A stretch of 64,000 nucleotides of DNA from positions 22,444,001 to 22,508,000 of the forward strand of contig NC_135251.1 of assembly GCF_964204865.1 (NCBI RefSeq). Reading direction: 5' to 3'. This document shows positions 6,018-61,591 of this stretch, piece by piece. The first letter of the stretch is position 1; each line of letters begins with the position of its first letter. A program made the position numbers and the translations under genes. The stretch is from Styela clava (Eukaryota > Chordata > Ascidiacea > Stolidobranchia > Styelidae). A model generated the notes under the pieces. That model did not search any database. It was not told the DNA's origin and saw nothing but the letters and a program-made list of their open reading frames with translations.

Positions 6018-6223
6018 AGCGCTCCAGAAGTATGTGTACCGATGTGGCGATAACTAATTTTGTTTGCCTACTTTACATCAAGTTGTGTAAAAGGACTAAG
6101 CCTATGAGCAGGGGGATATTCACTTAGCTAATACAGACAGTCCCGGATCTGGAAATAGAACTAAAATAAGGAAAATAGGAATAAAATTATGGCCTAACAC
6201 GGTACACATACTACGGGAGCACC
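6018..6223. mobile_element. Short MITE (family M), copy 1
   Basis: 206 bp with imperfect terminal inverted repeats: left AGCGCTCCAGAAGTATG, right CATACTACGGGAGCACC. It is flanked by CTCTAATC (6010-6017) and CTCTAATT (6224-6231), a 7/8 matching target duplication. Its interior matches the copy at 31064-31277 closely, sharing the segments TAACTAATTTTGTT and GGAAAATNGGAATAAAATTA. No coding capacity. Confidence 0.85.
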
Positions 6224-6324
6224 CTCTAATTTTTTAACAAATGAGTGTATTAAAACTTGATCTGATTCATCTCACAGTTGTCTATCATTCTTTACACTCA
6301 GTCACATTGCCGCAGCTCTGCATA

Positions 6325-8530: not shown

Positions 8531-8714
8531 CTTGGATGTTTCACCGAGCATCGATTTCCTTGCTTATTTCTATAATAAGGACCAATCAGCAAAACGTAAA
8601 CAATGACGTAACAATGGCAGTTTTTAAAGCCCCTCAGACACTTCTCTCGTTCGGACAGATATTCGAGCGCGGTTGTAATCATTGCCTCGTTTTCAGTTGT
8701 GTTTTTGAAAATTA

Positions 8715-12400: not shown

Positions 12401-13311
12401 ATTTCAATTTTTCTATTGAATTAGATTGTGCAAACTTACATACTTCTTTAAAATGGCGGTTTTGTCCGGTTATCGCGCTTCAACGTTCTGTGCAGTACAT
12501 CTTGTACCTAATATTTTATTTGTAGCAATATACAAACTGTTGAAAATACTTGGTTTGCAAAAAAAAGCGGAATTCTCGTAAAAGCGAATCACAATTTCGA
12601 ATATTTTCGGTATTCTTATAACACTGACATAATTGTTGTAACTCCAGTTTGGTACTTTTTAATATATTTAACTTTACAATCTAAATCAAGAAGTCGATTC
12701 AGGAAAATATTAGTTTTTGAACCAAAGGCTAAAATTGCCAAGTAGTTTCTATAGTCTAAATTTAGATGAATGATAGCTTGGCTTCAGAAAATGGGAGCTT
12801 CAGCAGTCCATTTCAGAGAGATTTTCAACCAGGGTTCCACCAGTAAAATCCAAGGGTTCCGCAAGTTTTAAGATCATTTTGTTTCACCAGTAATATGGTT
12901 TCGTTTGGTTCCTGTTTATTTGAACCCACGACATTTGCACCTAACTATTGCACCTATGGAAAAAAATTTGTTTTGCGTATATATATATATATATATAGTA
13001 GTATATATTTACGCCCTAACCCATGGGTTTTGGCACCCGCATATAGATTGAACCTGCGGATATACACATGGGGTAAAATGTATGGTCACCGTTTCTTTTA
13101 TATATATATATATAGTTTATATCGACAGTATTGCTAAACTCTTCCCTGAAATTTCCACTCTATTGATTGTGGAAGTGTTGGACATAGAGTCTACTCTAGA
13201 CACTCCGAATACAATAATAGGCCTGATTACATGTCCATCAAAACCAGTCCAGCGAACCGGTTCGGTCAAAGTGGTCTCGGATACTACTTAGTGCCCTCGA
13301 TTACATGTCTA
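12401..13311. other. Intergenic with microsatellites
   Basis: No gene is supported. It contains two AT dinucleotide runs (about 12979-12999 and 13100-13117) and a hAT-like terminus CAGGGTTCCACCAG at 12828 with no visible partner. The last nine bases (13303-13311, ACATGTCTA) form the left target duplication of the fold-back array. Confidence 0.4.
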
Positions 13312-14774
13312 TGGTGGCCCATCGTTGTCACGCGTAAAATTTAAAAAAAAAAATGAAAAAGCGAAAATAAAAAAATAGTTGTGAAAAAACATAAAAATAA
13401 TTGAAAAAAAAAAGAAATGATGAAAAAAAAAAAAAATTAAAAAGAAAAATTGAAAAAAAAAACGAAAAAAAAAAAAAAATTAAAAAAAAAAAAAATTAAA
13501 AAAAAAAATTGGATAAAAAGGTTGACAACGATGGTCCGCCTCGTGGCCCATCGTTGTCAGGCTTAATCCTACACGCACAAATGTGTTTCCTGGGTTTCTA
13601 ACTCACTACTGATTTTCATGAGCAATATTCAATAAATTCAACATGAAAATGTTCTATAAATTCTCCATGCTAAAAGTTCAACCACAAGATATATATTAAT
13701 AATAATGATAAGAGAATATAGAATTGAATACGAAAATTTGTTTTTACGTGTAGAAGGTAATTTAATTGAAAAATGCTGCTTAACTGCTCAGTTGTCTGGA
13801 CACTCGTGCGATGCCGGTACGGTACCGTCTGACCGTACCGGTACCCATGCAATCACTCGTGAAAGAATGGGAGATACGGATAGTCTCGTAGAATACAGAC
13901 TACTAAAACACTCTCTGCGCCTGCCCCATACCGTACAGCCGTAACGTACCGATCCAGACAAATGATAAATCGCCCGTGCTCAACCATTTATTTCAATCCA
14001 TACCTCGACTCACTATATTCTACTAGGATAGCACGGGCGATTTATCATTTGTCTGGATCGGTACGTTACGGCTGTACGGTATGGGGCAGGCGCAGAGAGT
14101 GTCTCAGTAGTCTATATTCTACGAGACTATCCGTATCCCCCATTCTTTCATGAGTGATTGCATGGCTACCGGTATGGTCAGACGCAAAGGGACTATAACC
14201 GACTACCGGTATTTGGTAAGACGATACGGTACCGGCATCGCAAGTGTCCAGACAACTGAGTAGTTAAGCAGCATTCTCCAATTAAATTACCTTCTACACG
14301 TAAAAACAAATTTTCGTATTCAATTCTATATTCTCTTATCATTATTATAAATATATTACGTCTTGTTGAACTTGTAGCATGGAGAATTTATAGAACATTT
14401 TCATATTGAATATTGCTCAAGAAAATCAGTAGTGAGTTGGAAACCCAGGGAACACATTTGTGCGCGTAGGATTATGCCTGACAACGTTGGTCCCAAGCAG
14501 AAGCAAATTTTCTAAAAATAAAAACGCGTGACAACGATGGGCCACGAGGCGGACCATCGTTGTCAACCTTTTTATTTTCTTTTTATTCAATTTTTTTTTT
14601 TTTTTTTTTATTTTTTTTTTCGTTTTTATTTTCAAATTTTTTTTTTTTCAATTTTAATTTTTTTATCACTTTTTTTTTCAATTATTTTTATGTTTTTTCA
14701 CAACTATTTTTTTATTTTCGGTTTTTTATTTTATTTTTATTTTCAATTTTACGCGTGACAACGATGGGCCGCCA
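13312..14774. mobile_element. Fold-back transposon copy A
   Basis: About 1.46 kb that is almost entirely one inverted repeat. The left arm starts TGGTGGCCCATCGTTGTCAC and the right arm ends GTGACAACGATGGGCCGCCA. The arms meet around 14000-14030, where AAATGATAAATCGCCCGTGC is followed about 50 bases later by its reverse complement. Each arm has, in order, the terminal repeat, a 150-200 base A-rich (T-rich) tract, a GACAACGATGG...CCATCGTTGTC palindrome, a GACAACGTTGG box (right arm), and a GC-richer core with CCGTACCGGTACC. No transposase; the short Phe- or Lys-rich open frames merely reflect the homopolymer tracts. It is nearly identical to copy C. Confidence 0.92.
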
Positions 14775-14779
14775 TACTA

Positions 14780-16046
14780 TGGTGGCCCATCGTTGTCACG
14801 CGTAAAATTGAAAATAAGAATAAAAAAACGGATTTTAAAAAAAATGTTGTAAAAAAACATAAAGATAATTGAAAAAAAAAATGAAAATTAAAAAAAAATA
14901 AATAAATAAAAACGAAAAAAAAAACAAAAAAAAAAAATTAAAAAAAAAAAAAATTAAAAAAAAAAAAATTGAATAAAAAGAAAATAAAAAGGTTGACAAC
15001 GATGGTCCGCCTCGTGGCCCATCGTTGTCACGCGTTTTTATTTTTAGAAAATTTGCTTCTGCTTGGGACCAACGTTGTCAGGCATAATCCTACGCGCACA
15101 AATGTGTTCCCTGAGTTTCAAACTCACTACTGATTTTCTTGAGCAATATTCAATATGAAAATGTTCTATAAATTCTCCATGCTACAAGTTCAACAAGAAG
15201 TAATATATTTATAATAATGATAAGAGAATATAGAATTGAATACGAAAATTCGGAAAATTTGTTTTTACGTGTATAAGGTAATTTAATTGGAGAATGCTGC
15301 TTAACTACTCAGTTGTCTGGACACTCGCGATGCCGGTACCGTCTTACCAAATACCGGTAGTCGGTTATAGTCGCTTTGCGTCTGACCGTACCGGTAGCCA
15401 TACAATCACTCATGAAAGAATGGGAGATACGGATAGTCTCGTAGAATATAGACTACTGAAACACTCTCTGCGCCTGCCCCATACCGTACAGCCGTAACGT
15501 ACCGATCCAGACAAATGATAAATCGCCCATGCTCAACCATTTATTTCAATCCATACCTCGATCCTAGTAGAATATAGTGAGTCGAGGTATGGATTGAAAT
15601 AAATGGGTGAGCACGGGCGATTTATCATTTGTCTGGATCGGTACGTTACGGCTGTACGGTATGGGGCAGGCGCAGAGAGTGTTTCAGTAGACTATATAGG
15701 ATTAAGCCTGACAACGTTGGTCCCAAGCAGCATCAAATTTTCCGAAAATAAAAACGCGTGACAACGATGGGCCACGAGGCGGACCATCGTTGTCAACCTT
15801 TTTATTTTCTTTTTATCCAATTTTTTTTATTTTTTTTTTTTATTTTTTTTTTTTTAATTTTAATTTTTTTTTTAATTTTTTTTTTTTTGTTTTATTTTTC
15901 ATTTTTTTTTTAATTTCAATTTTTTTTTTATTTCTTTTTTTTCAATTATTTTTATGTTTTTTCACAACTATTTTTTTATTTTCGCTTTTTCATTTTATTT
16001 TTTCATTTTTTTTTTAAATTTTACACGTGACAACGATGGGCCACCA
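14780..16046. mobile_element. Fold-back transposon copy B, inverted relative of copy D
   Basis: Joined to copy A by TACTA and to copy C by TAATA. It starts TGGTGGCCCATCGTTGTCAC and ends GTGACAACGATGGGCCACCA. Read on the other strand it follows the copy at 42922-44477 nearly base for base, including the characteristic TTTTCCGAATTTTCGTATTC arm and a 67-codon open frame shared exactly. Its core inverted repeat centres near 15560 (CATACCTCGATCCTAGTAG). Confidence 0.9.
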
Positions 16047-16051
16047 TAATA

Positions 16052-17515
16052 TGGTGGCCCATCGTTGTCACGCGTAAAATTTAAAAAATAAAAATGAAAA
16101 AGCGAAAATAAAAAAATAGTTGTGAAAAAACATAAAAATAATTGAAAAAAAAAAGAAATGATGAAAAAAAAAAAAAATTAAAAAGAAAAATTGAAAAAAA
16201 AAACGAAAAAAAAAAAAAAATTAAAAAAAAAAAAAATTAAAAAAAAAAATTGGATAAAAAGGTTGACAACGATGGTCCGCCTCGTGGCCCATCGTTGTCA
16301 GGCTTAATCCTACACGCACAAATGTGTTTCCTGGGTTTCTAACTCACTACTGATTTTCATGAGCAATATTCAATAAATTCAACATGAAAATGTTCTATAA
16401 ATTCTCCATGCTAAAAGTTCAACCACAAGATATATATTAATAATAATGATAAGAGAATATAGAATTGAATACGAAAATTTGTTTTTACGTGTAGAAGGTA
16501 ATTTAATTGAAAAATGCTGCTTAACTGCTCAGTTGTCTGGACACTCGTGCGATGCCGGTACGGTACCGTCTGACCGTACCGGTACCCATGCAATCACTCG
16601 TGAAAGAATGGGAGATACGGATAGTCTCGTAGAATACAGACTACTAAAACACTCTCTGCGCCTGCCCCATACCGTACAGCCGTAACGTACCGATCCAGAC
16701 AAATGATAAATCGCCCGTGCTCAACCATTTATTTCAATCCATACCTCGACTCACTATATTCTACTAGGATAGCACGGGCGATTTATCATTTGTCTGGATC
16801 GGTACGTTACGGCTGTACGGTATGGGGCAGGCGCAGAGAGTGTCTCAGTAGTCTATATTCTACGAGACTATCCGTATCCCCCATTCTTTCATGAGTGATT
16901 GCATGGCTACCGGTATGGTCAGACGCAAAGGGACTATAACCGACTACCGGTATTTGGTAAGACGATACGGTACCGGCATCGCAAGTGTCCAGACAACTGA
17001 GTAGTTAAGCAGCATTCTCCAATTAAATTACCTTCTACACGTAAAAACAAATTTTCGTATTCAATTCTATATTCTCTTATCATTATTATAAATATATTAC
17101 GTCTTGTTGAACTTGTAGCATGGAGAATTTATAGAACATTTTCATATTGAATATTGCTCAAGAAAATCAGTAGTGAGTTGGAAACCCAGGGAACACATTT
17201 GTGCGCGTAGGATTATGCCTGACAACGTTGGTCCCAAGCAGAAGCAAATTTTCTAAAAATAAAAACGCGTGACAACGATGGGCCACGAGGCGGACCATCG
17301 TTGTCAACCTTTTTATTTTCTTTTTATTCAATTTTTTTTTTTTTTTTTTTATTTTTTTTTTCGTTTTTATTTTCAAATTTTTTTTTTTTCAATTTTAATT
17401 TTTTTATCACTTTTTTTTTCAATTATTTTTATGTTTTTTCACAACTATTTTTTTATTTTCGGTTTTTTATTTTATTTTTATTTTCAATTTTACGCGTGAC
17501 AACGATGGGCCGCCA
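16052..17515. mobile_element. Fold-back transposon copy C, near-identical to copy A
   Basis: Repeats copy A at an offset of about 2,741 bases; all short frames of copy A recur with the same translations. The only difference noticed is a base or two in the A-runs near the left end. It ends GGGCCGCCA at 17515, sharing with copy A the rare G in place of A. After one T the right target duplication ACATGTCCA follows (17517-17525). Such identity implies very recent duplication or gene conversion. Confidence 0.92.
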
Positions 17516-18366
17516 TACATGTCCAAACCAACAAACTGAGAACAGTTTTGGAGTTGCCGGATTAAATCAAATAAGTCATGATTTGCAAACACTGCATATA
17601 TCTTATTTCCAATAAATTCATAAATTCAATACAAATGTTAATTAAAGTATCAAAATTAAATGCACGTTCTTGATTTAAATTCTTTGAAGTTATTTGCAGA
17701 ATATGATAAGGGGTTGCTTTGCCGTTGAAATTTGCCCACAATCTAAGAACAAAACGACAAATTTATTGGGGGCATAAAAGATAGACGATTTAGATCATTT
17801 TGGCCGACCATCCAGCGTTCAACGCTGCAGACTACTGGCACCTTACGCCACACGATCCATTCAAAAATCACGGTAGGCCTACAGTTACCAATAGTCTACT
17901 GGCAGACTGGCAACTAAATGAAAACAATTACATTTTATCAACCAAACACTTGTGTGAAGTGGGCTCATCATATGTGAACAGAAGAACTTTCATTATTTAA
18001 CATCGCCCTACTACTGCGACGTTACCGACACTGAAGCTTTGTATTTATGCTGGTACGGGTATGTACAGTAAGGGTACCGGTACCAGCTAGAATGCGGTAT
18101 GGCTGTAAGGTGCAATTCCAAAAGAATTTTCAATGCAAACTGAAGTCGTTCTGCGCTCAGTTTATACCAATAAATCTTTAGACATCAAGATTTAATTCTC
18201 TGTTTCAAAACAACAGCCTATCATGCCAATATGCCGCACCGGGATCCCACCAGTATCAGTATTTTAAATTTGTGTTCAGCAGCGACACAATAGATGCGGA
18301 AGATGTTTAAATTAAACTTGCCCTATCTAGCTGAATTTTTATTAGTTTAAAAAAGCAACTCACTTA
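17516..18366. other. Intergenic, no gene seen
   Basis: Unique-looking AT-rich DNA, with GGTACCGGTACCAGC near 18074-18088. No supported coding frame. Confidence 0.35.
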
Positions 18367-19442: not shown

Positions 19443-22400
19443 TCATGCCTTTAATAAAGCAAATTGCCTGGGCCTTCTCTTCTTCTTTCCAAGTGTGCAG
19501 CGATAAATCATCATCCTCATATGGTGAAATGCAAATATGACTGAGTGCAGTATGATTGGTGCCACAACTACAATCGCAAGAAGAAATCCTGCTACAAATC
19601 CAGGGGAGTTGACAAAATCGAGAAATCCGTATATTTGGGAGTTTATTCCAGCGAAGTGTACGATAACTGCGGTGAATGCATAAAACAAGGCGAACATGCT
19701 AGTGTAAACAAACTGTATCCAGCGTGTCGGAATGGAGACTACAAAAATATCTATTAGAAGCATTATTCCTTGCACGCTATGTTTATGTTGGCCGAGAGGT
19801 TGTTTCAGTGTTTCCGCAGGAAGCCCGGGTGCCGTAAGTCCCCAGTATAAAACAGTAACGAAAAGCACAAAATTCATTGCTTGTACATGAAAGAACCAAG
19901 TGAGTTTATGAAAAAACTTCAATCCACCTAGGAATAAAGAAATTAAATACGACTACAATTGCTAGTAACCACAAAACATTTATTTTTATCCATCACTAAA
20001 GCACTATATATATATATATATAATGTTTCTGTCAGAAACGAATGGCTATTTTAATTTATAGCCATAAATGAAAAAAGGAATTTAACATGTGCCCTCATTT
20101 AATTTTAGAACGATTCGCCTTTAGTTCTATTTTGAATCAACCCAGAATAAGTTTTATCTTCCGCGTATTCAATGGGTGCCATATAGGCTTGCACGTAATT
20201 GACAAAAATCAATTCCGTAATTACGGCCAAATCGATTACGTAATGACCCCGTAATTGCGATCTTTTTTCACACACATTTAAACCTATAATAGCAACCAAT
20301 TGAATGCACTTTATTTTCGATTGGGCAATCGAGTTTGGGTTTTCATATTCCTGGCAGTACTCCACGTCGGCGACAGATGTTAAGACAAGAGTGAATTCAA
20401 ATTAATTTTATTCTGATTTTTATCTTTTGTGCTAGCTTTGATTTCCTTTATCACCTTCGCAAATCAACCGTCCCAATTTTATGCGATCAATTTTATCATT
20501 ACCGACACTGGTATACGGATATTTATGAAACGATAGTTGACTTTTTTTAAATCGTCGGGTTTCCAATAGACCTTATTCATTAAAAACCCATCCTACGCGC
20601 AAAAAGGAAAGGTGATGTAAAAAATTTTTTTTCAACATTAGCTCTTATAGGGAATGTGATCACCAGAGCAGAAATTTGCATTTTATGTCATTTTCTAGAT
20701 ATCTTTCATTGTATACGTGGGCAGTTTTGAGGATAGAATATTTTTTACATCTTTTTTGATATTTTTATTATGATAAACATGGTCAAGATTTTTAATAATC
20801 ATTCATTGAAATTTTAATGAGCGCGGTGTTTCCGATGACGTCATTCTCACTAGACCATGAGATTCTGCCAACGCGCCGTGCTCTGTGGGATATAGGCTCC
20901 AACTGCTTGTGATAACAGAATACTTGAATACCGGTACCGGGACCACAACTGGCGTTCAACGAAAGACCTATTTTGGTTTTAATTGGATGTTATATATTTC
21001 ATGAATTCCATGTACATTTCTGGTACACCTTTCAAAATCCAATGGCCTAACTCAGTTCATATGTTGACGGTACCTACCATGTACGGTACCTATCCCAAAA
21101 TTGGTGATGTTCAGGGCTGGATTTAGACCATGAGAGGTCCCTTCATATTTTTGAGCTCAGAATTTCTCTCAAAACAACACCACATTTAATTGCTTAAAAT
21201 TTAAAAATATGAAATCCGATTAAACTTTTCATTCTCCCCATTCATGGGTGTGAATTTTTAATTAAAAGAATGATAATTTACTTGAGGCAGTTTTGTTTTC
21301 AATTTATTTGATCAAACAACCGCTACAGCCATACTTTAACATAGAAACTTCCAGCAGAATGCGCATAATAATAATTTCCCCTACTATGATGCAAACGACG
21401 CAATAATGGCTGTTTACAATGTGGTTGAAACTAGTTGTGTACAGAATTTTCTACTCTGAAAAGCTTGATATATATATATATACTTTTTGTAGGGTTTAAA
21501 CTTGTCAAGTTTTCAAAAGAATTACAAACTTTGAAACCGAATTTTGAGGCTCTAGGTTTCAGCCTGCCTAGCCTATTGGTAAATCCAGCCCTGGTGATGG
21601 TCCCTACAGCAAATTTCTGGCCCTAATCACTCAGCAGATTGAAATAAATGGTTTTCAGCATTTATTAGCAGAGATAGATATTTTAATTAAACATATAGTT
21701 CAACTTAAAGCCTGTATAATGATATTATAAATATAGGCCCCATTATTCCTGCATTGGGAGAAGGCTTTCCACACTATCAAGTCTATAAGGTTTTAGCGTC
21801 TTCCAATGTCTCAGATGGAAACTCCAGTCTTCATTTCGCATATTCTTTTCATTAATGCCATTAGCATTTGAAGCTTGACTGATTCCGATGTACCTTTTCC
21901 ATTGTTGTTTAATGTAATATCCTAAACGTGACTTCAAATTTTTTTCTCACTTCAATCATCACATGTTTGAATACCCGAGCTGACTTCTACTGATTTATTA
22001 TTAATTTACAATTTTTTTTTATAAATTAACTGTCGTACTTGCTAAGTGTCCACTAAGTGAAAATCTACAAAAAAAGCAGTGTTTAATAATGGACTACATT
22101 TTTAACCGAATCCAAAAATATTCCGTAACTTAGTCAACCCTTCCTCCGAGGAGTTTTTGTTAAAACATCTTAATTAACTGTTAATCCTGATAGCAAACAT
22201 GGGGGCAGGGGGGTGTGATGGTCGTATCGCTCCCCAGTCTATACCGAATAACTGTGTGTTTTGTATATGATTTTTATTGATTCAATGCTTGTATTCTGGT
22301 TGACAAAATAAATCTCCCTCTCGTATTCAGTCATGTTTTTCAACCTAGTCACGAGACCGGTATTGTACCATTATAGCTTGGAGATATTCATCTTTTTTGT

Positions 22401-25400
22401 ATACCGGTACCGTACAACTTGTCCTGCCTATTGGAAAGATGGCCAACATTTTTGTTCGTAGGCCTATTTCAGTATTTACTAAATAATTTAGTTTTCACCT
22501 CTTGCAGCCTTGGTTCGGTACCGGTAGTTTAAATAACACGTCAGCATGCCTTCAGTAAATGCGGCGCGGCGGTGTGACTCAACGGGCTAAGCGTTAGGAA
22601 TACGCTCGCCACCGCACCTCTAATTACTCTGCGTGGGTTCGCAGGTTCGAATCTCACGCAGGGATGATTATGTGCGAGAGGATTGCTGGACTCCTCGCCG
22701 TCGTTGGGTGGTTCTCGTAACCGCTGGTCGGTTACGGCTTCCTCCACCATCAAGTCCATGCTTCCGAAAACAAAAACAATATAACTAATCCCAGACCCGA
22801 CTTGGAATGGTAACCGGACGAGAGGCCGTGGTTCGACATATGGATAAGCCGTCTTATCGGCTTTCCTCTCCCCCGGGATAAATATGTAAATCCTATCCTA
22901 TCCTATCCTAAATGATTGCTAGCTGTACAGGTATAAATGCGTAAAACCAGTAAACAAACGTGATAGAAATGGTACGGGTTATAGATTGTCAATGTTAAAC
23001 GCTCCCAGTACCGGACGGACACGGACCCAAAGCGACATTAGGGCCGCATTTGCAGCGCATATCCACAGAGCACGGCGCGTTGGCAGAATCTCATGGTCTA
23101 GTGAGAATGACGTCATCGGAAACACCGCGCTTATTAAAATTTTAATGAACGATTATCAAAAATCTTGACCATGTTTATCATGATAAAAATATCAAAAAAG
23201 ATGTAAAGTATATTCAATCCTCAAAACTGCTCACGTATACAATGAAAGATATCTAGAAAATTACAAAAAATGCAAATTTCTGCTCTGGTGATCACATTTC
23301 CCATAAGAGCTAATGTTAAAAAAAATTTTTTTACATCACTTTTATTTTTTGCGCTTAGGATGGGTTTTTAATGAATAAGGTCTATTTATCAATGCCACGA
23401 CGAGCGTATTCTCTCGTTTGATTATACTTGCGCTTGCCTCGCGACGAAGACTTGTTATTGCACCGTTTTTAACATTATTCGACTTTACTACCTATAGTCA
23501 GCATTTTATAATAATTATTGATGCCGACTTATTGACGTTATTCCGATTACCATGCTTCATTTTACATTAAATCATTTCGCGGCCTAAATGTTGTAACATC
23601 ATTAGCAACAAATTTAGATCAAATATTAATTGTTTGCGCATAATTTAAATACCGTACTTATATGGCTTTTCCGAAAATACAAAGTTATATCGCAAAAAAA
23701 TGCATATTGTGACATTTATTTTGCACTCACGAAAAAATTAACTTATTTTCCTAACTCAAGTCGACGATCCTATCGGCCAAGATTGACACAACTTTGGTCG
23801 AGTGTCGGTGGTTTTCAAGAATCAAAATAAGTTGCCGCATATGGTAAAGACAGTTAATCATACTTGGCCGAAATATTGCGAGGCATTGTGGAAAATATAT
23901 TGAGCAAGGACAAGTCCGGACTGATATAAAAGGATAAAACCGGTGACAGAACATCAAGGTTTTGTAATTGAAAATGGTTCTCGCACAGAATAAACACACT
24001 GGCACATACTTGATATTTGATAGTAGTTAAATTGAGAATATTGAACTGTTGAAAACAAAAAAACGATCGTCGAAATTCTTAAATCTCGTTGCCTTGGTTA
24101 AATATAATCCAATGCTCAGGACATTTTCAATTAAATACTGCACAAAGATAGTTATACATTAAACATTTAGGCTACAATTTAGCTTTTTTTTTAAATTTCA
24201 ATCATGCATTGTGGTGGAGAAATCCCACTATTTAAATACGGGTAACTATAAAAATAGAATGGGATTCTGGATTCGATTTAAGTATTCTAAAACAGTGGTT
24301 CCCAACCGCCGGTCCGCGGACCGTCAACGGTCCGCAAAGGATTTTTACCGGATCGCGGGAAATCCCGTCACATTGTTGTTTCTCTGCCGTCTCAATCGCT
24401 TTACCGATGCCGAAAAGACGAAGTTGCGTTGGTTCATTACGCAATTTCTCTTCCGTCGTCATATTGCTGTTTGATAAGCGTGACATTAATTATCACGGTG
24501 ACGTATTGGCAAGAGAGAGAAAAGTGAGAAAAACGGCTGCAAATATCGAAGCTCTAACTTCTTCTACTTTTTAAACTTTCACTTTTTACAATCGAAGGAA
24601 TTGACTGCTTTGAAGAGAGCTCGTTTCAATTGCGAAAGCTCTCGACCAATAATTACGACTTTACGTAATTCGTAACTTCGCTTCCGTAACTCGAAATAAT
24701 TCCGTAAATCTGTAAATTACGTGCAAGCCTAGTGCCATAATTAAGTGGGGATTGCAAAGTTCATTTATTCAAGCTTGAATATTAAATATATTACTACAAA
24801 TACCACAAATTTTTTTGTAAATTTACCTGGAGTCTCCGACTTCTCGTTATTTGATTCTTCTTGATTTTCAATTTTACGGTCATTTCGTGCAATTAGTCCA
24901 TACAATGTAATGATAAACGCGCAAAGATAATAAATTCCGGTAAAGAAAAAACTCCAATTACTTGCAGTGTAGGCAGCATCTTCTTTCGCAAACGCCCAGC
25001 TTGCTATTAGCCAGCCCCAGTGATAAAACATGGTGAAAGCACGATATAAAACAAAGTATAATTTCTTCTTCGACCACTTTAAAATACAAAATAATAGATT
25101 CTTGGTGTAAGAAAGCTTTTTATCTGAGATTGTATAATGCTATTTCCACATATATATTAAAAGCGTAGTATATCAATGCTAATCATCACATGCATTATAT
25201 TTTATTTTAAAATTTCACTTCAAGAATGAGAATTATGTAAATGTCACCATTTTGAAGTTATAATAATGAAAATAAGCAATGGAGCAATGAATGTCATGAC
25301 CACTGGGATAAATTCAAAAGCATACTGACTTACTTGGAATTCATAAAAATTGTTTTCGTGCGCGCTTTCGAGTCGTAGATGCTTTAGTTGAAATTCGTAT

Positions 25401-25417
25401 CCACAGCTTGTTGCCAT
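19443..25417 (-). CDS. Rolling-stone-like multi-pass membrane protein, gene 1
   Basis: Exons (minus strand) are 25334-25417, 24827-25076 and 19443-19927. All borders are GT/AG, with phases 0 and 1, and they join into 819 bases, a 272-residue protein. It starts MATSCGYEFQLKHLR. Likely membrane segments lie near residues 34-56, 67-90, 120-143, 160-182, 188-207 and 215-240. Family marks include WFFHVQAMNFVLFVTVLYW, GIMLLIDIFVVSIPTRWIQF and IYGFLDFVNSPG, which fit the Rolling stone family (Drosophila rost, implicated in myoblast fusion). A biochemical activity is not established for the family. The tail ends in a basic cluster, GKKKRRPRQF. Intron 2 (about 4.9 kb) contains a 2.8 kb transposon, a hAT element and a SINE; intron 1 is short. 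The other copy lies at 50860-52232 with the same exon plan. Confidence 0.88.
21112..21593. mobile_element. hAT-like MITE nested in the 2.8 kb transposon
   Basis: Ends are CAGGGCTGGATTTA and TAAATCCAGCCCTG, a perfect 14-base inverted repeat. It is flanked by GTGATGTT (21104-21111) and GTGATGGT (21594-21601), a 7/8 matching target duplication. 482 bp, non-coding; includes a short AT run. Confidence 0.87.
22561..22910 (+). repeat. tRNA-derived SINE
   Basis: It opens with a tRNA-like head carrying an A-box-like TGACTCAACGGGCTAAGCG (about 22575-22593) and a good B box GGTTCGAATCT (22644-22654), the internal RNA polymerase III promoter. A unique body of about 230 bases follows (TTGGGTGGTTCTCGTAACC; CCATCAAGTCCATGC; CTCTCCCCCGGGATAAATA). 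It ends with a pentamer tail, TCCTA repeated four times (22891-22910). AAATG lies on both sides and may be a short target duplication. Its GC content stands out against the host. The 72-codon minus-strand frame across it is a chance frame. A reverse transcriptase from a LINE would mobilise it. Confidence 0.88.
23385..24292. other. Intron sequence without identified elements
   Basis: This lies within intron 2 of the first Rolling-stone gene. I see no repeats with ends and no coding exon. Confidence 0.35.
24293..24420 (+). repeat. hAT-like terminus, partner end not found
   Basis: CAGTGGTTCCCAACCGCC followed by the palindrome GGTCCGCGGACC and another GGTCCGC copy is a typical hAT end (TIR CAGTGGTTCCCAACC). 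No matching right end or target duplication is visible before the next exon at 24827, so the element is truncated or too diverged. Confidence 0.5.
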
Positions 25418-27632
25418 TTCAAAACGTAAAAAGTTTTTACTTAGGCCTACTTACTGAATAAATTTCATATGTTGTTTGCTGAATAAGTTTAAAGACTAGA
25501 ATAAGAAGATGTTTTGTTTTCATTTCATGGCTTAAAACACCAAAACACATTTTAGAACTAATTTTTCGATAATCAGGTAATAGCAAACCCGCAAGAATTT
25601 CACAAACCGCGCTTTTGGTCTGTTTTATTCCTTCCACGATGGATTTGAGAAATGTACTTGACGTAATTCGAATTTTTGAGTTTTCACACCTAAGCATACC
25701 AATTGGCATATATTATATATTTGTGTTATATATATTATATATATATATATATATTAGCAAAAAATTAAATAATACTAAAATAATGATTGATGTTTCTAAC
25801 CAACTCGAATTGAATTAAAGTTCGGAATTAGTTATTTCCTTGCTACATTTTCCTTCTTATGCTTGAATTAAAATATATATTTTTTAACTCGAACTTCGCA
25901 GCAATTGTCTCTTTTCATATTTGCTACGCATAGCGATATTAGGGCGCGTTATGTAAAGCAGTTTGTCAAAATATATCGAGTTTTAAACATGCGTGATTAT
26001 CTCCACCCATCTCCATGACAATATTGAATAACCACAGCCCTATATTATTGCCAAAGGCGTGTATCAAATATCAGTGTCTAATGAACCCAGATTGCCTTGA
26101 AGTAAGCCGCAGATTCTTCAAGAATCCTTTCATCCAAATGTTTTACAAGATACTGCATAGCTTTTGACCCTTAGGCATATTTTTAGCTTCATTAGACCAA
26201 TGAAATAAAATGCTATATGGCATCATATATGTTTACCTCATGTTAGGTGTGTCCAGATAAGTGTGTAAAAACAGTCTGTTTCAAAATATGGCGACTAAAA
26301 AACTGATGAGAAACTGCATAATTTGGGGTAGAAGGAATAAAAACACACCGCAAACCCAGCGCTCTATTTTCGCGCCTGTATAAACCCAAATCAAAAAATA
26401 GCCTCCATAAAACGTTACTTACAGTTTATTTTGCCACTACCTTAGTAATGGTATAACAAACATTGAACATCAAGTAACACATTCTATGATGTCTTATAAT
26501 GTTATATTCCATACCTTTTCAGTCTGTTCCATTGCAATTTCAAACAATACTGATTCAGCAATATAACTATAAGGGTTCGGTTTAACAACTAGTGCTTAAA
26601 ACCACGAAAACGAGTCAAACTCATTCTTCTTCATGCTTGAAAATCTGTCTAAGTGAAAAGGTGTCTGAACGGCTTGAATTTCAATTGTACGTCATTGTTT
26701 ATTTTTTACTGATTATGCGCTGCTACGCAGCTAAAAACGATAGGATTAGCAACGCGACATACATACGCAGCCAAAATATACATTCAAAACCAACTCTCAT
26801 ATATAAAGTTAATGTCATATACGCCTAAAACCATTTTAAGTGATGCCACACTTACAGTCAATCGATTTTAAATATATATACTTTATGTAGAGCTGTACAA
26901 TACGGTTGAGTCTACATGTTGTGTGCATGAAGATACATCACTCGTTCACAGAGATTGAATACACAGAGGAAGTCGTAATTTTTTTGAGTCATAATGCCAC
27001 TTAAAGTTCAGGGCAAACCATCATTACCCACGTTACATTTTGTTTAATTTATAAAGCTTAGCCATATAAATTTTGTATGGTAAAGCAAATCTCGATGACG
27101 AAATGCAGTAGTGCTATTTCTCCTAGAGAAACTCTAAGAGGGATATTGATTGATCGAGAGAGCAGCGCTCAAGTATATGGACATGAAAAGCAAAGATTTT
27201 TTTAACCAGAATGATCCCAAATATCATAACCTGAACAAAGCTAGAACTGTGGGACATGTACGGTAGCTTACAGTATCAGGTTACCGATACCCGGACTGTC
27301 CTAGTTTTTACTGGTCCTGTGAGTTGGTGATACATGCTTTGAGTCTCAACGTGTATTGTGGTACCAAAAGATCGCAGTCGCAATGGTATTATCGAACATT
27401 TTACAGTACCAGCACCGTAGACTGCCGTGACAAAATTTCGACTTTCGCTAAGCTGACACGAGGTCGCGGAACCGCTACAAATAATTTCTAATTTTGTTGA
27501 CATCATACCACAAAACGTCAAATAGACTGACGAATCACACAGAGCCTACAGGAAGTTTGAAATTATTGAAAGTAATAGCCTTCTAGCGACAGCAGGAATA
27601 TTTAACCACTGAAGATTTCAAAGCAATTGGTC
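25418..27632. other. Intergenic, upstream of the first Rolling-stone gene
   Basis: No gene is supported. There is an AT run near 25730-25756 and a cluster of GTACCGG-like motifs near 27260-27420. The promoter of the first Rolling-stone gene should lie at the left edge, but no box is clear. Confidence 0.35.
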
Positions 27633-29152: not shown

Positions 29153-29390
29153 AGTACTCCCGTAGTATGTGAACCAAGATAGGGGATGCCGGAACGTAGA
29201 ATGTGTACCAGGTTTGGGTTAAGCCATAATTTCAGGTACAAATCCTACGGGAGTCACTTGGCTATAGTACCCGAACTCGTAATAGAACTAAAAAAAGGAA
29301 AATTGGAATGAAATTATGGCCTATCCCTAACCTGGTACACATACTGCGTTTCGGTGTCCGCAATCTTGGTTCACATAGTACGGGAGTACC
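29153..29390. mobile_element. Short MITE (family M), copy 2
   Basis: About 238 bp. The inverted ends read GTACTCCCGTAGTATGTGAA and TTCACATAGTACGGGAGTAC. The interior holds GGTTTGGGTTAAGCCATAAT and, inverted, ATTATGGCCTATCCCTAACC, so much of the element is palindromic. Relatives lie at 6018, 31064 and 62312. No clean target duplication could be read here. Confidence 0.85.
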
Positions 29391-31063: not shown

Positions 31064-31277
31064 GCCGTTCGAGAAGAATGTGTGCCAATATGGAGGTAAC
31101 TAATTTTGTTCGCCTACTTTACATCAATTTGCGTAAATGGACGGAAACCTATGGGGAGGGGTTACATTCACTTGGTTAACACAGACAGTCCCCGAACTAA
31201 TAATGGAACTAAAATAAGGAAAATTGGAATAAAATTATTTCCTAACTCTAACCTGGTACACATACTACGGTTGTACC
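31064..31277. mobile_element. Short MITE (family M), copy 3
   Basis: 214 bp, starting GCCGTTCGAGAAGAATGTG and ending CACATACTACGGTTGTACC. The flanks are GAATTAAA (31056-31063) and GAATTGAA (31278-31285), 7/8 matching. The interior parallels copy 1 (CTTTACATCAATTTG; ACACAGACAGTCCC). Confidence 0.83.
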
Positions 31278-38600: not shown

Positions 38601-41600
38601 TTTCATCGTATCATCGTCTTCTCACTGAATTCCGCTAAGAACACATTGTACGTATCCGCGGGAAACAAATGAGCCAATGGAATGGCAGATAATTTTTTGC
38701 CGCGCTGCACGCGGCTGCCTTCGGTTACGATAAAAATGAAATAATTGAAAAATGTTTTAAATCAAAATATGGACGGCGGGGCTAGGATATGTGCGCCATA
38801 TTCGACATCCGTATAAACACGAAAATCATATTCGAAGGTTGCGATTTCAAATTAGACATTTCTTCTTCAAGCACTGCATAAGATTAACCTAATTAACAAA
38901 TATCACTACAAGCGTTTTTTAAGTTTTCGGTTTTCGGACTTTCGTATGTAGAAAATCTTACGTTAGCCGGAGCAGTATTTTTACCAAAAGAATTTTCGTA
39001 TATTAGATTTTTCGTATCCAGGGCATTTTGTAGGTAAGGTTTACAGGTGCGCCCCGCGGCTTCACCCATTTATCTGTATCTGGCCCTCCTGTAATGAAGG
39101 TTGCACACTCCTGCTAGTAGATCACCCTGCTGGCGGCAGACTGAAGTTGAGAATTTTCCCATTTAGTACTGTTTAGAGTTTAGAAATCAGCCGCCGACAA
39201 CGCCATGTTATGTCTTGACAAGGCAAGGGGACGATTGTTCGAAGTAACAATAGTCAGCGAGCTAGCTTAACTGAAAACACTAGAATGAGTAATAGAAAGG
39301 AAAATCCCTTGACGTCACAATATGCTATATACATGACTATGTGCATATCTATCAATGCACAGTTGGGAAGGAAGAATAAAATTCAAAATGGGCTAAGGGA
39401 GGAATTCATCGAAAAAGTTTGAGAACCATTATATATCCCATAATTTGAAACCTGGATACTGAATTGGCTACCAAATATCACTAATTCGGTAGAAATTATC
39501 TGAAGCCAGCTTACTAAAAATACAAATGGTTTGATATCAACTTGTGCTATCGATTGGGTTTCTACAAGACCAACTACTTTTCCGTTTTCTATGCCTTTGC
39601 GTCGGTGGATCCGTATGCATATAATGCAAGGATGCTGTAGCAAGAGTGAAGATAACTATCCTGAGTAATTCAATAAATAGTCTTGCTGCACACTAACACA
39701 AATATATTTCTGTAACGTTTCGTCTGTTCAAGGTCAGACTTCCTCAGACATTCATATTTCAACTAAAGCAAGAACAGCAATTATACAATGGATGCCATGG
39801 CAACAAAACAATATCATAACAATGGGAGTTAACGAACCCATGCAGGTGGTGATTGTAAAATTAATTAACAACAATAAGTTTAAATATTTAAAACTAAAAA
39901 ACACATGAAAGTTTCATGCACATTCATAAAATGGGTGCCATGTCAACATAACAAAATCACAAAAATGGGATTTGAAAAATCAATAAATTGGTGATTGTAT
40001 TTTAATCAACTTCGATTACAATTCAATTCAATTCAATTCGTTTATTACTCCAGACCGCTGTGGTCCATATAAAAACAACACAACAAATAAACACAAGCAA
40101 AACAAAAATAACGCAATAAATACATAAAATAACTGATATGACAATCAGATTCACAGTAGTAAGTCTCAAAAAAGAGTTATAATATAGCAATTTAAGAGAC
40201 CAAAAGTGAGGTATAGAATCTAAGGTAGCCCGTAACAAACAGTATCTGCGAATCAAATAATGATTGTAATAAAATGTTATTGGAGTTCCTGCATCTCGTC
40301 ATGAACAACCACAGATTTTTTTCTATGGAGTGCTTCGAAAGAGGGAATGTTCCCAGATACCATTTTGTGACGGACACTCTCAGATCTAGAGACACAGTGA
40401 ATTACGCGATAAGCATTATTATATGAAATTTTAACTTTTTTATAATTATAATTATTGAAAAACAACCAGAGCTGGCAGTTATAAATGCTACAACAATACG
40501 TCCTAAACAAAAGATTTTTCACAGTAGTGGAACAATTGACAAATTTTTTCAAAATTGTATGGGCTATAAAATAAATTGATTTATACTGACATTTCAAGTC
40601 AAGGTCATCTCTAAGATCACTGGATAGGAAAACAGCAAGATATTTAGTGGACGAAACATAAGTCAATACAGAATTACAAAGTTTGATATCAGGCAAATTA
40701 TTCAGCCTAAACTTTTTATTCTGGATACACATACAAACAGATTTTTTCGAGTTGTACAAGATGTCATGTTCAATAGAGTATTTATCGCATATGTTAAGTA
40801 AACGTTGAAGACCTTTGGCTGAAGGTGAAATGCAACACATGTCATCAGCATAAAAAATATGATTGATAATATTGTTATTTGCTACACATCCAATGGTCTC
40901 TCGATTCAACTTAACAGAAATGTCATCCATGTAAACAGCATATAAATATGGACTTAATATACTACCTTGCTGGGTAGCATTATGGACAGAGAAAGGATCT
41001 GACACACTGCTACCCCATCTAACAAACATGGATTGATTACGATACATGTGTACAATCAGCGACAAAAATATTTTGGGGATTCTTCTGTTAATTAATTTAC
41101 GAAATAGAGTCCAGTGATTAACTTTATCAAAAGCTTTAGTGGCATCCAAAAAAGCTATGTAAACTGGTGATGATTTTTGGGAATAATAAGTAGCTAGCTG
41201 CTTTATTGTAAAAATGCACATGTCAGTCCCGTGACCAGGCTTGAAACCAAACTGGTTGTGAGATGTAGTTAAGTAAGACCCAATGTTATTTAAAATGTGT
41301 TTTTCAAAAATCTTAGATAAGACAGAGGCCACTGCAATAGGCCTGTAGTTACTTGCACTACAAATGTCACCATTTTTGTTCTTAATTATAGGCTGAATAG
41401 AACTTGAAAGGGAGGTTGCAGGAATATAACTATGGTTCATACATGTGTTAATATACAAACATAAAAGCACTGATAGAATTGGATGAGAATATGCCAAATG
41501 TTCCTTGGTTATCCCATCAGGACCAGGTGAACAACCAGATTTAAGAGAAGAAACAATATTTGCAAGCGCATCGACAGTGAGCAAGTAATTACTGAAACAG

Positions 41601-44600
41601 TTATCAACATCAGAATTCAAAAATCCTAACACAAAATTTTTATCATTTTCATTGGGAACACTATTAAAAATTTCTTCAAAGTGATTTTTTCATATATTAG
41701 TAATTTCATTCTGCCCAGTGGCACCCCCAACACTAGCTGGAAGTGGGCCGATATTGTCCTCTGAAATGATCCGCTTAGCGCGAGACCAGAATTGTTTGGG
41801 ATGGTTACACAATAATGATTTGGCAATAGCATCACATTGATTCCTTGTTCGCTCTCTTTTACAAGCTCGAAACAATCGTTTGAAATGCAATTTTGTTGTA
41901 ACATATGCATCAAAGATACAGCCATGGCGAGGATTGTTATGATAAACCAACTCAAGATATGCTTGTCGAGCAGCAACATAAGAGTCTCGGACCTCACTGT
42001 TCCATCCAGGAATAGGCTTAATGTGCTTATGTAACGATCTAACATGCACCATGTGAGACTGTGAACTAATAAGGGCAGAACAAATATCATGGTTAAATTG
42101 ATTAATGCTTTCACGGTGAGACTGGCAATTGATATTATGACATCGAATAGCCCCAAAGGGAATTCTTATAGAACTTAAGTTTTTAAAAGTTGAGTCAGAA
42201 TATTGGTTCAGCTGCGATGATGAAGCTGAGCTCCAGGAAACAAATTGCTTGACTGCATGGTCACTTTTTGTATCATACATGATAGGAATATGTGAAACAA
42301 TGATTGACACAGATAAAGGTCTGTGATCTGAAATTATAATGTCTTGAATAACATCTATAGATTCAATAGAATTATGCATATTCACACTTGTAATACAATG
42401 GTCTAACCAACTAGTTGTTGCATGTGCATCACTAATGTATGTAAAGGAACCAGGCGGTAGAAGTTTCATATCGGATAAAATAAGACCATTTTCTGAACAA
42501 AAATCTTTCAGTAAATGACCAAAAGTATTTGAGTCGCTGGCATTAAAATCACCAATGATAACAATATTAGATATAGAAGAGTTTTCAATGATAGATTGCA
42601 TTTTACAAAGTAGGGAGACAAACAAGTCTTCGTTTTCACTGCTGCAACATGGCATATAAACATTTAGAAATAAAATAGAGATTTCCTTATTTTGAAAAGG
42701 AATTCCCATCAGTCGATCATCTTTTATAGAATCAATTACAGAAATGAATGGATGCAGTGATTCATGCCATAAACAAGCCAGACCTCCAAATGGACGACCT
42801 GAGATTGGACTGCCATTGGCATAATATATGGGGGAAATAGCAGCACTACAGCTTCCGAGTCTGGGTTAAATAACAATTCGACACCGACTCAGAATCTGAA
42901 AGAACAAAACAGACACAATTATGGTGGCCCATCGTTGTCACGTGTAAAATTTAAAAAAAAAATGAAAAAATAAAATGAAAAAGCGAAAATAAAAAAATAG
43001 TTGTGAAAAAACATAAAAATAATTGAAAAAAAAGAAATAAAAAAAAATTGAAATTAAAAAAAAAATGAAAAATAAAACAAAAAAAAAAAAATTAAAATTA
43101 AAAAAAATAAAATAAAAAAAATTGGATAAAAAGAAAATAAAAAGGTTGACAACGATGGTCCGCCTCGTGGCCCATCGTTGTCACGCGTTTTTATTTTCGG
43201 AAAATTTGATGCTGCTTGGGACCAACGTTGTCAGGCTTAATCCTACACGCACAAATGTGTTTCCTGGGTTTCTAACTCACTACTGATTTTCATGAGCAAT
43301 ATCCAATAAATTCAACATGAAAATGTTCTATAAATTCTCCATGCTACAAGTTCAACCTCAAGCAATATATTTATAATAATGATAAGAGAATATAGAATTG
43401 GATACGAAAATTTGATTTTACGTGTAGAAGATAATTTAATTGGAAAATGCTGCTTAACTGCTCAGACACTCGTGCGATGCCGGTACGGTACCGTCTGACC
43501 GTACCGGTACCCATGCAATCACTCGTGAAAGAATGGGAGATACGGATAGTCTCGTAGAATATAGTCTACTGAAACACTCTCTGCGCCTGCCCCATACCGT
43601 ACAGCCGTAACGTACCGATCCAGACAAATGATAAATCGCCCGTGCTCACCCATTTATTTCAATCCATACCTCGACTCACTATATTCTACTAGGATCGAGG
43701 TATGGATTGAAATAAATGGTTGAGCACGGGCGATTTATCATTTGTCTGGATCGGTACGTTACGGCTGTACGGTATGGGGCAGGCGCAGAGAGTGTTTCAG
43801 TAGTCTATATTCTACGAGACTATCCGTATCTCCCATTCTTTCATGAGTGATTGTATGGCTACCGGTACGGTCAGACGCAAAGCGACTATAACCGACTACC
43901 GGTATTTGGTAAGACGGTACCGGCATCGCGAGTGTCCAGACAACTGAGTAGTTAAGCAGCATTCTCCAATTAAATTACCTTATACACGTAAAAACAAATT
44001 TTCCGAATTTTCGTATTCAATTCTATATTCTCTTATCATTATTATAAATATATTACTTCTTGTTGAACTTGTAGCATGGAGAATTTATAGAACATTTTCA
44101 TATTGAATATTGCTCAAGAAAATCAGTAGTGAGTTTGAAACTCAGGGAACACATTTGTGCGCGTAGGATTATGCCTGACAACGTTGGTCCCAAGCAGAAG
44201 CAAATTTTCTAAAAATAAAAACGCGTGACAACGATGGGCCACGAGGCGGACCATCGTTGTCAACCTTTCTATTTTCTTTTTATTCAATTTTTTTTTTTTT
44301 TAATTTTTTTTTTTTTTCAATTTTTTTTTTGTTGTTTTTTTTTCGTTTTTATTTATTTATTTTTTTTTAATTTTCATTTTTTTTTTAATTATTTTTATGT
44401 TTTTTTACAACATTTTTTTTAAAATCTGGTTTTTTATTCTTATTTTCAATTTTACGCGTGACAACGATGGGCCACCATACACAATTACACAGGATTTTAA
44501 ATACGCATCCGGTTCCGAATTAAACGAAATTGGAGACTCTGTCTACGAATAGATTGTCCAGTAACCCAATTCTTGTGATTTGTTTATGACCTAATCAGCG

Positions 44601-50859: not shown

Positions 50860-52232
50860 TCACGATGAAAAGGCAACATTGTCATGCCCCGTATTGAATG
50901 TAGCTGGTTGATCGGACATTCTCTGCTTCTTTCCAAGTGTGCAGCGATAAATCAACATCTTCAGATGATAAAATGCAAATGTGATTGTGTGCAATATGAT
51001 AGGCACCACAAATACATTCATAAGAAGAACTCCTGCCACTATGCCGGGGGAGTTGACAAAATCGAGAAATCCGTATATTTGGGAGTTTATTCCGGCAAAG
51101 TGTACGATAACTGTGTTGATTGCGTAGAACAATGCAAACAAGGCACTGTAAACAAACTGTATCCAACGTGTGGGAATAGAGACTACAAAAATATCTATCA
51201 GAAGCATTATCCCTTGCACACTATGTTTATGTTGGCCGATAGGCATTCTCAGTGTTTCTGCTGGGACATCCGGTGCCAGAAGTGCCCAGTACAGAACTGT
51301 GACGAAAATAACAAAATCAATTGCTTGTACCTGAAAGAACCAAGTAACTTTGTGGAAGAATCTCAGTCCAGCTGAAAAAAAAAACCAAAAGACGATCATA
51401 CTAAAGCTCGATATACAACGTTGCAACAAGCTGTGATTAACTAAATATTTTAATTTACGGGACTTTTTAATAACGAAAGATAGAGATAAAGAGAGAACTT
51501 TAGGACGTGCCATCGCCTGACTAATTATAAAACAATCAGACTTTAAATTTACTTCAAATTAGTACTGTTTTAAAAAATAGTACTTCCTGATGGAACACGC
51601 ATATACTACAGAATAAATTCATTTAAGATTGAATAGTGATATATTACTAAGTCAGCTATACTACAAACATTTTGTATCAGTACCTGGATTTTCTGTTTTA
51701 TGTGACATGCCGGTATTTGGTGCTTCTTGATTTTCGACTTTATGGTCGTTTCGCGCAATTAGTCCATATAATGCAGTGATAAACGCGCATAAGAAATAAA
51801 TGCCGGTAAAGAAAAAACTCCAATTACTTGCAGTGTAAGCAATGTCTTCTTTGGCAAACACCCAGCTTGCTATTAACCAGCCCCAGTGATAGAGCAGGGT
51901 GAAAGCACGATACAAAACAAAATATAATTTCTTCTTTGACCACTTAAAAGACGAAAATAGTTCATGTTTAAAATATCCATGCATAAATTTACTTTAAAAA
52001 CTTATAAATGTAATTCTTAAATAACAAAAAGTACTGTCTTTGATACCAAACGCCATTAGCAATAAATTATGCCATGGTCAGTAGTATAAGTTCAGCCCAG
52101 AGGCATAGGCCATAGCAACAATATATGTATATACTTGAAATAACTTACTTGAAATTCGTAAAAATTGTTTTCGTTCGCGCTTTCGAATCGCAGATGCTTT
52201 GATTGAAACTCGTATCCACAGCTTGTAGCCAT
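50860..52232 (-). CDS. Rolling-stone-like multi-pass membrane protein, gene 2
   Basis: Exons (minus strand) are 52149-52232, 51684-51942 and 50860-51371, with GT/AG borders and phases 0 and 1. They sum to 855 bases, 284 residues. It starts MATSCGYEFQSKHLRFESAN, differing from gene 1 in only a few of the first 28 positions. Exon 2 shares WSKKKLYFVLYRAFT and ASNWSFFFTGIY. Exon 3 shares LRFFHKVTWFFQVQA and GIMLLIDIFVVSIPTRWIQF. The loop after membrane segment 2 (NQEAPNTGMSHKTENP) and the C-terminal tail (GKKQRMSDQPATFNTG) diverge most. Six membrane segments are likely, as in gene 1. Both introns are short here, unlike the 4.9 kb second intron of gene 1, which was swollen by transposons. An apparent extension of exon 3 (MARPKVLSLSL...) is intron sequence read through, with the poly-pyrimidine tract and CAG just before AGLRFFHK. 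Confidence 0.88.
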
Positions 52233-60959: not shown

Positions 60960-61430
60960 ACACATACAGCCAGTGCCGTATGCGTACGCAGCAAATGCCA
61001 TATTCATATACAGCCAATGCCACATTCATGCCTTATATGCATATCTTATTACATCACTGTATATACAAAATATATTGACTGTATATGCATATGCCATGCA
61101 TATGGCATTGGATGTATATGTACATTGACTGTGTATGTACATCATCAAGATGCTAATATATGTATAGTCAGTTAACAGTATATGCATATTACATTGGCTG
61201 TATATGTACAGCACCTAAATGGCTGTATGTGTTATGAAATTGGTCGGATATGCATGTATTTACTGTATATGCATATGCCATGCATATGGCATTGGGTATA
61301 TATGTAAATTGAGTTTACTTTGTATACATATATACATTACTTGAACGCCTTCGTATTATACTGAATTGTTTGAAAATGTATATGACATTGGCTGTTTATG
61401 TACAGCACCTGAATGGCTGTATATGTGTAT
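60960..61430. repeat. Degenerate tandem tract built on GGCTGTATATG / CATATACAGCC
   Basis: About 470 bases of diverged units in both orientations: CATACAGCCAGTGCCGTATG, CATATACAGCCAATGCCACA, then CCATGCATATGGCATTGGATG and GGCTGTATATGTACAGCACC. Several units are internally palindromic (CATATGCCATGCATATGGCA), so the single strand could form many small hairpins. It ends where a copy of the GACCTTATTC inverted-repeat end begins (61436). Confidence 0.75.
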
Positions 61431-61435
61431 CGAAT

Positions 61436-61591
61436 AGACCTTATTCATTAAAAACCCATCCTACGCGCAAAAAAGAAAAGTGACGTAAAAAAATATTTTT
61501 TAACATTAGCTCTTATGGGAAATGTGATCACCAGAGCAGAAATTTGCATTTTTTGTAATATTCTAGATATCTTTCATTATATACGTGAGCC
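61436..61591 (+). repeat. Partial copy of the 2.8 kb transposon arm
   Basis: It starts at TAGACCTTATTCATTAAAAA and follows the arm at 20569-20730 through TCACCAGAGCAGAAATTTGC to ATATACGTG, then diverges. Only the outer 155 bases are present, and no inverted partner lies to the right. Confidence 0.85.

Follow-up and report, generated by a model that had tools for sequence, protein, structure and literature searches.

At positions 13310 to 17517 of the window, by which we mean the whole 64-kb stretch of DNA analysed here, three fold-back elements stand end to end with only one target duplication around them. The locus thus raises the question of how such an array could form within a single insertion site.

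Four units of one fold-back family

A first-pass annotation had described a head-to-head array of three fold-back elements. Our analysis bears this out, as units A, B, and C are joined end to end, and a lone copy of the same family, unit D, was also found in the window:

13310-14776, + strand: unit A, fold-back element, TATGGTGG...CCGCCATA, 649 predicted pairs
14778-16048, - strand: unit B, inverted D-type copy with a 314-bp deletion in the left arm (D's orientation)
16050-17517, + strand: unit C, the same as A save for one extra T in an A-tract
42920-44479, + strand: unit D, lone family member flanked by a target duplication of its own, 704 predicted pairs

The units measure 1467 (A), 1271 (B, the shortest), 1468 (C), and 1560 bp (D). 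Their location agrees with the first-pass annotation, while their extent had to be corrected: the earlier units ran from TGGTGG to CCRCCA, and the terminal TA is now added. The end sequence of the units is TATGGTGGCCCATCGTTGTCA, and their termini are best read as TATGGTGG...CC(A/G)CCATA. We found TATGG or CCATA at all eight ends of the four units, demonstrating the presence of TA...TA termini. The terminal motif had 16 matches in the window, all inside units A to D, and none in 100 shuffles. Its 15-base core occurred 30 times, solely in the same units, as compared to a shuffle mean of 0.28.

Predicted pairing indicated that the inverted arms are long and fill most of each unit, which places the units in the fold-back structural group. 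The previously proposed hairpin of more than 600 bp per unit holds for A, C, and D (649, 649, and 704 predicted pairs) but not for B (515). The predicted pairs that span the unit midpoint number 609 in A, 296 in B, 609 in C, and 684 in D. Among 32 ORFs with 100 or more amino acids, a Pfam scan covered 15 and detected no DNA transposase in them; three ORFs running through the T-rich arms of the units lay outside it. A bacterial or viral spread of the family was considered and rejected. The 19-base terminal pattern had no match in viral_contigs and two in genome_contigs (Streptomyces and a Halopseudomonas MAG), which we take as chance matches because about two would be expected in 257 Gb by hand reckoning.

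We took the window to be animal DNA on the basis of its encoded proteins, as detected by a Pfam scan of the ORFs. The same scan identified an alpha-1,6-fucosyltransferase fragment and a CENP-S-like protein. Further features of the window are the following:

19443-19952: rolling-stone-like protein 1 (Pfam Rost)
50860-51558: rolling-stone-like protein 2 (Pfam Rost)
40277-42865, - strand: LINE with endonuclease and reverse transcriptase domains, two ORFs

Unit D starts 55 bp past the upstream ORF of this LINE. The two rolling-stone-like gene copies (19443-25432 and 50860-52247) represent a local duplication, about 27 to 31 kb apart, with stretches of 300, 256, and 105 nt that are similar at 83 to 89%. 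A further transposon-like structure carries inverted arms at 20565-20906 and 23046-23386, which lie about 2.1 kb apart and match in 318 of 342 columns; a 118-aa ORF within it had no Pfam match, and a partial relative was found at 61427-61590. Dispersed short repeats include 86- and 77-nt families at 6020-6224, 29266-29351, and 31066-31272 and a 61-nt family at 8553, 18613, and 27747. Two TA microsatellites lie in the left flank of the array, at about 12979-12998 and 13100-13115 (some 310 and 195 bp from the array). Rfam gave no match in the window at the gathering score.

Comparison of the units confirmed that A and C are almost the same sequence, with 1463 matches, no substitutions, and a single 1-base gap at 13348 that reflects an additional T of C within an A-tract. 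Their offset, earlier given as about 2,741, is 2740 before the gap and 2741 past it. The identity stops at the element ends, bar one shared C on the right. B had been described as matching D when inverted, and it showed 1234 matches, 5 substitutions, and 10 gaps (345 columns) against the reverse complement of D, the largest gap being 314 bp. On the side facing A, the core arm of B matched the right arm of D in 555 of 556 positions and the right arm of A in 506 of 524. As this arm is nearer to that of D than to that of A, B is not a copy of A. Because B is inverted, the order of the array is A(+) B(-) C(+), with one right-right and one left-left junction.

Comparison of A with D gave between 44 and 48 substitutions, the number varying with the alignment used, and several gaps; one of these is a 50-bp gap in A, where sequence was lost between two copies of the terminal motif. 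The outer poly-A module in the right arm of A matched the left arm of D in 205 of 228 positions and the right arm in 194 of 225, being no nearer to the latter than to the former, a pattern that hints at exchange between arms. Relative to D, deletions were found in both left arms (D's orientation), of 314 bp at about 15697 in B and of 50 bp at about 13545 in A and likewise in C. They suggest that these palindromes may be unstable.

Junctions and the single outer duplication

The junctions and the target duplications were located as follows:

13304-13309: left target duplication of the array, CATGTC, 6/6 against 17518-17523
14777: junction 1, single-base spacer (C) separating two complete right ends (TACTA, 14775-14779)
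16049: junction 2, single-base spacer (A) separating two complete left ends (TAATA, 16047-16051)
17518-17523: right target duplication of the array, CATGTC
42914-42919: left target duplication of D, CACAAT, 6/6
44480-44485: right target duplication of D, CACAAT, 6/6

The five-base junctions TACTA and TAATA reported before are present; they are better parsed as TA-C-TA and TA-A-TA, with one base between complete ends. The claim of one duplication around the whole array, and not around each unit, was upheld, as among six contiguous blocks only A+B+C has flanks that match in all six bases. The other blocks matched in 1/6 (A), 2/6 (B), 1/6 (C), 0/6 (AB), and 2/6 (BC), and random 6-mer pairs from the window matched at a rate of 0.0005. 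This result bears on ordinary nesting, in which units would have been inserted successively into or beside one another. Repeat-rich DNA commonly has adjacent insertions, which we counted for nesting. However, the inner duplications are absent (2/6 for B and 0 to 2/6 for A, C, AB, and BC), and none of the units is interrupted by another. Because B has no target duplication, we consider nesting very unlikely. The earlier suggestion that a copy had inserted into a junction and was then duplicated is disfavored as well, since the flanks at the edges of B match in only 2/6 and the four internal ends are complete.

Upon rejoining of the flanks, the empty array site contains GATTACATGTCCA, a 13-mer found again 74 bases upstream at 13225, and this recurrence makes the empty site plausible. 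GATTACATGTC occurs twice just left of the array, at 13225 and 13299 (74 bp apart), the second copy being the insertion site. Judged from the two sites, the target duplication is most likely 6 bp long. A 7-bp parse (ACATGTC and ACACAAT, with ends TATGG...CCAT) is also exact at both of them, is the longest exact one at both among the parses tried, and would alter the spacers. We prefer the 6-bp parse, since under the 7-bp parse the two ends are no longer alike and the A that follows each of the four right ends becomes a coincidence. Two longer duplications were rejected: for one of 8 bp, TACATGTC suits the array but fails at D under the same parse, while one of 10 bp requires one mismatch at each site by hand comparison.

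The C of junction 1 is the base that flanks the right end of unit C, but on the side of B it disagrees with D's right flank. The A of junction 2 differs from the base flanking the left end of A; had B come from the site of D, this A would suit the left flank there. The agreement of the two spacer bases with known flanks does not exceed chance (about 0.2, estimated by hand).

Given the one-base difference between A and C, we also considered an assembly artefact, in which reads of A took the place of those of C, or the assembly expanded one unit or a collapsed repeat. Zero substitutions is what an assembly error could give, and long palindromes and A/T-rich tracts pose difficulties for assembly. 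On the other hand, the sole difference between A and C consists of a T added within an A-tract, which is more than a change of homopolymer length, B is unlike both of its neighbors at many sites, and random misjoins would not yield the exact ends, the spacers, and the outer duplication. We therefore hold an artefact to be unlikely. An origin of B from a read folding back on itself was rejected, as B compared with the reverse complement of A gave 1128 matches, 37 mismatches, and 400 gap columns.

Possible origin of the array

We tentatively favor, at somewhat less than even confidence, the formation of the array by the joining of transposase-cut ends, probably between sister chromatids and with capture of an excised B. 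In this view, the units would belong to a fold-back DNA transposon that has TA...TA ends, carries no recognised gene, and is mobilised by a transposase encoded elsewhere. At the start, one A copy would have been sitting in the CATGTC site. After replication, one sister chromatid would have received a cut at the right end of A and the other a cut at the left end, and an excised D-type copy (B) would then have been joined between the two broken A ends, giving A-B-A within the original single duplication. Cut transposon ends would in this case have been joined to one another and not to new target DNA.

Such a sister-chromatid route would result in identical outer units, a single outer duplication, B without a duplication, and complete inner ends one base apart. 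It would explain the identity of A and C and the placement of the duplication in fewer steps, and it did not figure in the first-pass annotation. The four complete internal ends with their one-base spacers point to the joining of transposase-cut ends, and their completeness up to the terminal TA makes a homology-driven exchange unlikely. Under this route, the base at junction 1 would match a flank base that stayed on A; as the base at junction 2 is not the C predicted beside the left end of unit C, it would have come from B's side or from repair. The sequence itself shows the anatomy of the units, their exact ends, the single outer duplication, the identity of A and C, the inverted and D-like B, and a worn, junction-like sequence present in every arm (see below); we infer the cutting enzyme, the sister chromatids, and the capture of B. 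The evidence for the mechanism comes from the sequence of one array and one lone unit, thus from two insertion sites.

Template switching during replication through the long palindromes could instead have introduced, by copying, both B and a second A. Replication forks stall at long palindromes, and A-B-A with its inverted middle resembles inverted triplications; both were counted for this explanation. The 50-bp (A) and 314-bp (B) deletions relative to D also suggest palindrome instability. However, switches would be needed within one base of the element end at both junctions, while homology-driven switches would be expected inside the 1.3 to 1.5 kb of shared sequence, and we find this explanation quite improbable.

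The main rival is the earlier proposal that the array moved as a single composite. It agrees with the exact ends and with there being just one outer duplication, though we do not favor it. According to this macrotransposon explanation, which we see as possible though rather less than likely, excised units would have been concatenated elsewhere, and the trimer would have been inserted via its outermost ends, creating the CATGTC duplication. One 6-bp duplication lies around the whole array and none around its parts, and a pre-formed concatemer accounts for the junctions as well as end joining does. Each unit already looks composite (poly-A module, core, poly-T module, and worn junctions), and D with its own duplication shows such a unit inserting whole. 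In maize, according to the parts available of two accounts, the ends of neighboring Ac elements act jointly in macrotransposons or composite insertions, and the whole excises and reinserts (PMC9910405, PMC4270019), so that whole-unit excision and reinsertion has a known precedent (PMC9910405). As described there, Ac macrotransposons enclose host DNA, whereas the units here abut with at most one base of host DNA between them. The composite explanation also requires two identical A copies in one concatemer and an extra insertion step, and a single copy of the array is known, from the 64-kb window.

Possible traces of earlier joining, and related systems

The end joining that we favor may not have been the first in this family. 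We found an identical 36-bp sequence, not noted in the first-pass annotation, in all eight arms, some 210 to 290 bp from the unit end:

13524-13559, + strand: junction-like sequence, apparently worn, within the left arm of A, 36 bp

Exact 36-mers start at 13524, 14995, 16265, and 43148 on the + strand and at 14529, 15759, 17270, and 44226 on the - strand. The sequence reads GACAACGATGGTCCGCC-TC-GTGGCCCATCGTTGTCA, while junction 1 reads GACAACGATGGGCCGCC-ATACTATG-GTGGCCCATCGTTGTCA. The 36-bp sequence thus differs in having TC for the TA-N-TA center and in one more base. We infer that it is an old head-to-head junction, worn and without its TA ends. Each unit would then look like a smaller end-to-end array of poly-A module, core, and poly-T module, with the inner cut sites gone. 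As the worn joint is present in all eight arms, end joining probably occurred earlier in this fold-back family. It could instead represent paired subterminal transposase-binding sites, which would look similar. Searches with the terminal motif and the core found no free-standing poly-A module in the 64-kb window.

Sea urchin TU elements are modular fold-back transposons with 8-bp duplications and 15-bp tandem repeats in their outer arms. The units share this modular build and would differ in the other two features. Tetris and Galileo are described as having very long inverted arms that contain modules or internal repeats, and Galileo as forming chimeric copies via ectopic recombination, in the available parts of the published accounts (PMC4079207, PMC2775673). 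Those parts give duplications of 7 bp for Galileo and 8 to 10 bp for Tetris, and a three-unit array with 1-bp junctions is described in neither. An assignment to Galileo or the P superfamily is not supported, as the 7-bp duplication consensus GTAGTAC, given in the part available (PMC2775673), is matched neither by CATGTC/CACAAT nor by ACATGTC/ACACAAT.

A likeness in the ends was found with IS3EU/GingerRoot transposons, whose signature, in the available part of the account, consists of TA...TA termini and 6-bp duplications (PMC10045372). Here, TA...TA termini are present at 8/8 ends, and 6-bp duplications fit 6/6 at both sites, as does the 7-bp parse. In contrast, long fold-back arms and end-to-end arrays are not part of that account as far as it is available, nor is the manner of cutting and joining by these transposases. 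Judged by sequence, the family fits IS3EU/GingerRoot by its ends and not by any enzyme.

End-to-end arrays as such are known from the SaTar arrays of plant MULEs, which were reported as new in 2018; in the available part of the account, complete elements are lined up there in linear fashion and no element interrupts its neighbors (PMC5907723). A one-family trimer with one-base joints and a single duplication is a variant of such arrays. SaTar elements are described there as Mutator-like, unrelated to one another, and microsatellite-targeted, with 8- to 11-bp duplications, whereas the array here has one family, one outer duplication, and one-base spacing. Membership in SaTar is not supported, as one base lies between the units and an exact 8-bp duplication at the array and at D alike was not obtained with any parse tried, although TA microsatellites are present left of the array. 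A literature search of titles and abstract openings, which covered few subscription journals, found no title that names arrays of fold-back elements with one-base junctions.

The minicircle junction of the bacterial element IS2 (IS3 family) consists of abutted ends with a spacer of one or two bases, in a proportion of 90% to 10%, according to the part of the account available (PMC3299598). Both junctions here have 1-bp spacers under the TA...TA parse, which is the usual spacer of IS2. However, IS2 is described as joining the right and left end of one element, while the joints here are right-right and left-left, between units, and in a chromosome. In IS2, the transposase makes such junctions by asymmetric strand transfer. 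By analogy, the one-base junctions could have survived from a reaction in which a eukaryotic IS3EU-type transposase joins ends as IS2 does. Because the two ends of a palindromic element are nearly equivalent, copies would be joined right-right and left-left; the TA-less junctions would be locked inside, and the family would grow layer by layer. We regard this extension as speculative and improbable.

If the array is real and recurrent, it would show that an animal chromosome can have transposon ends joined to one another with a precision of one base. Modular fold-back elements could then be built by joining, followed by loss of the inner cut sites, and move as one. Such arrays would also offer a sequence-level handle on cutting and joining by IS3EU-type transposases.
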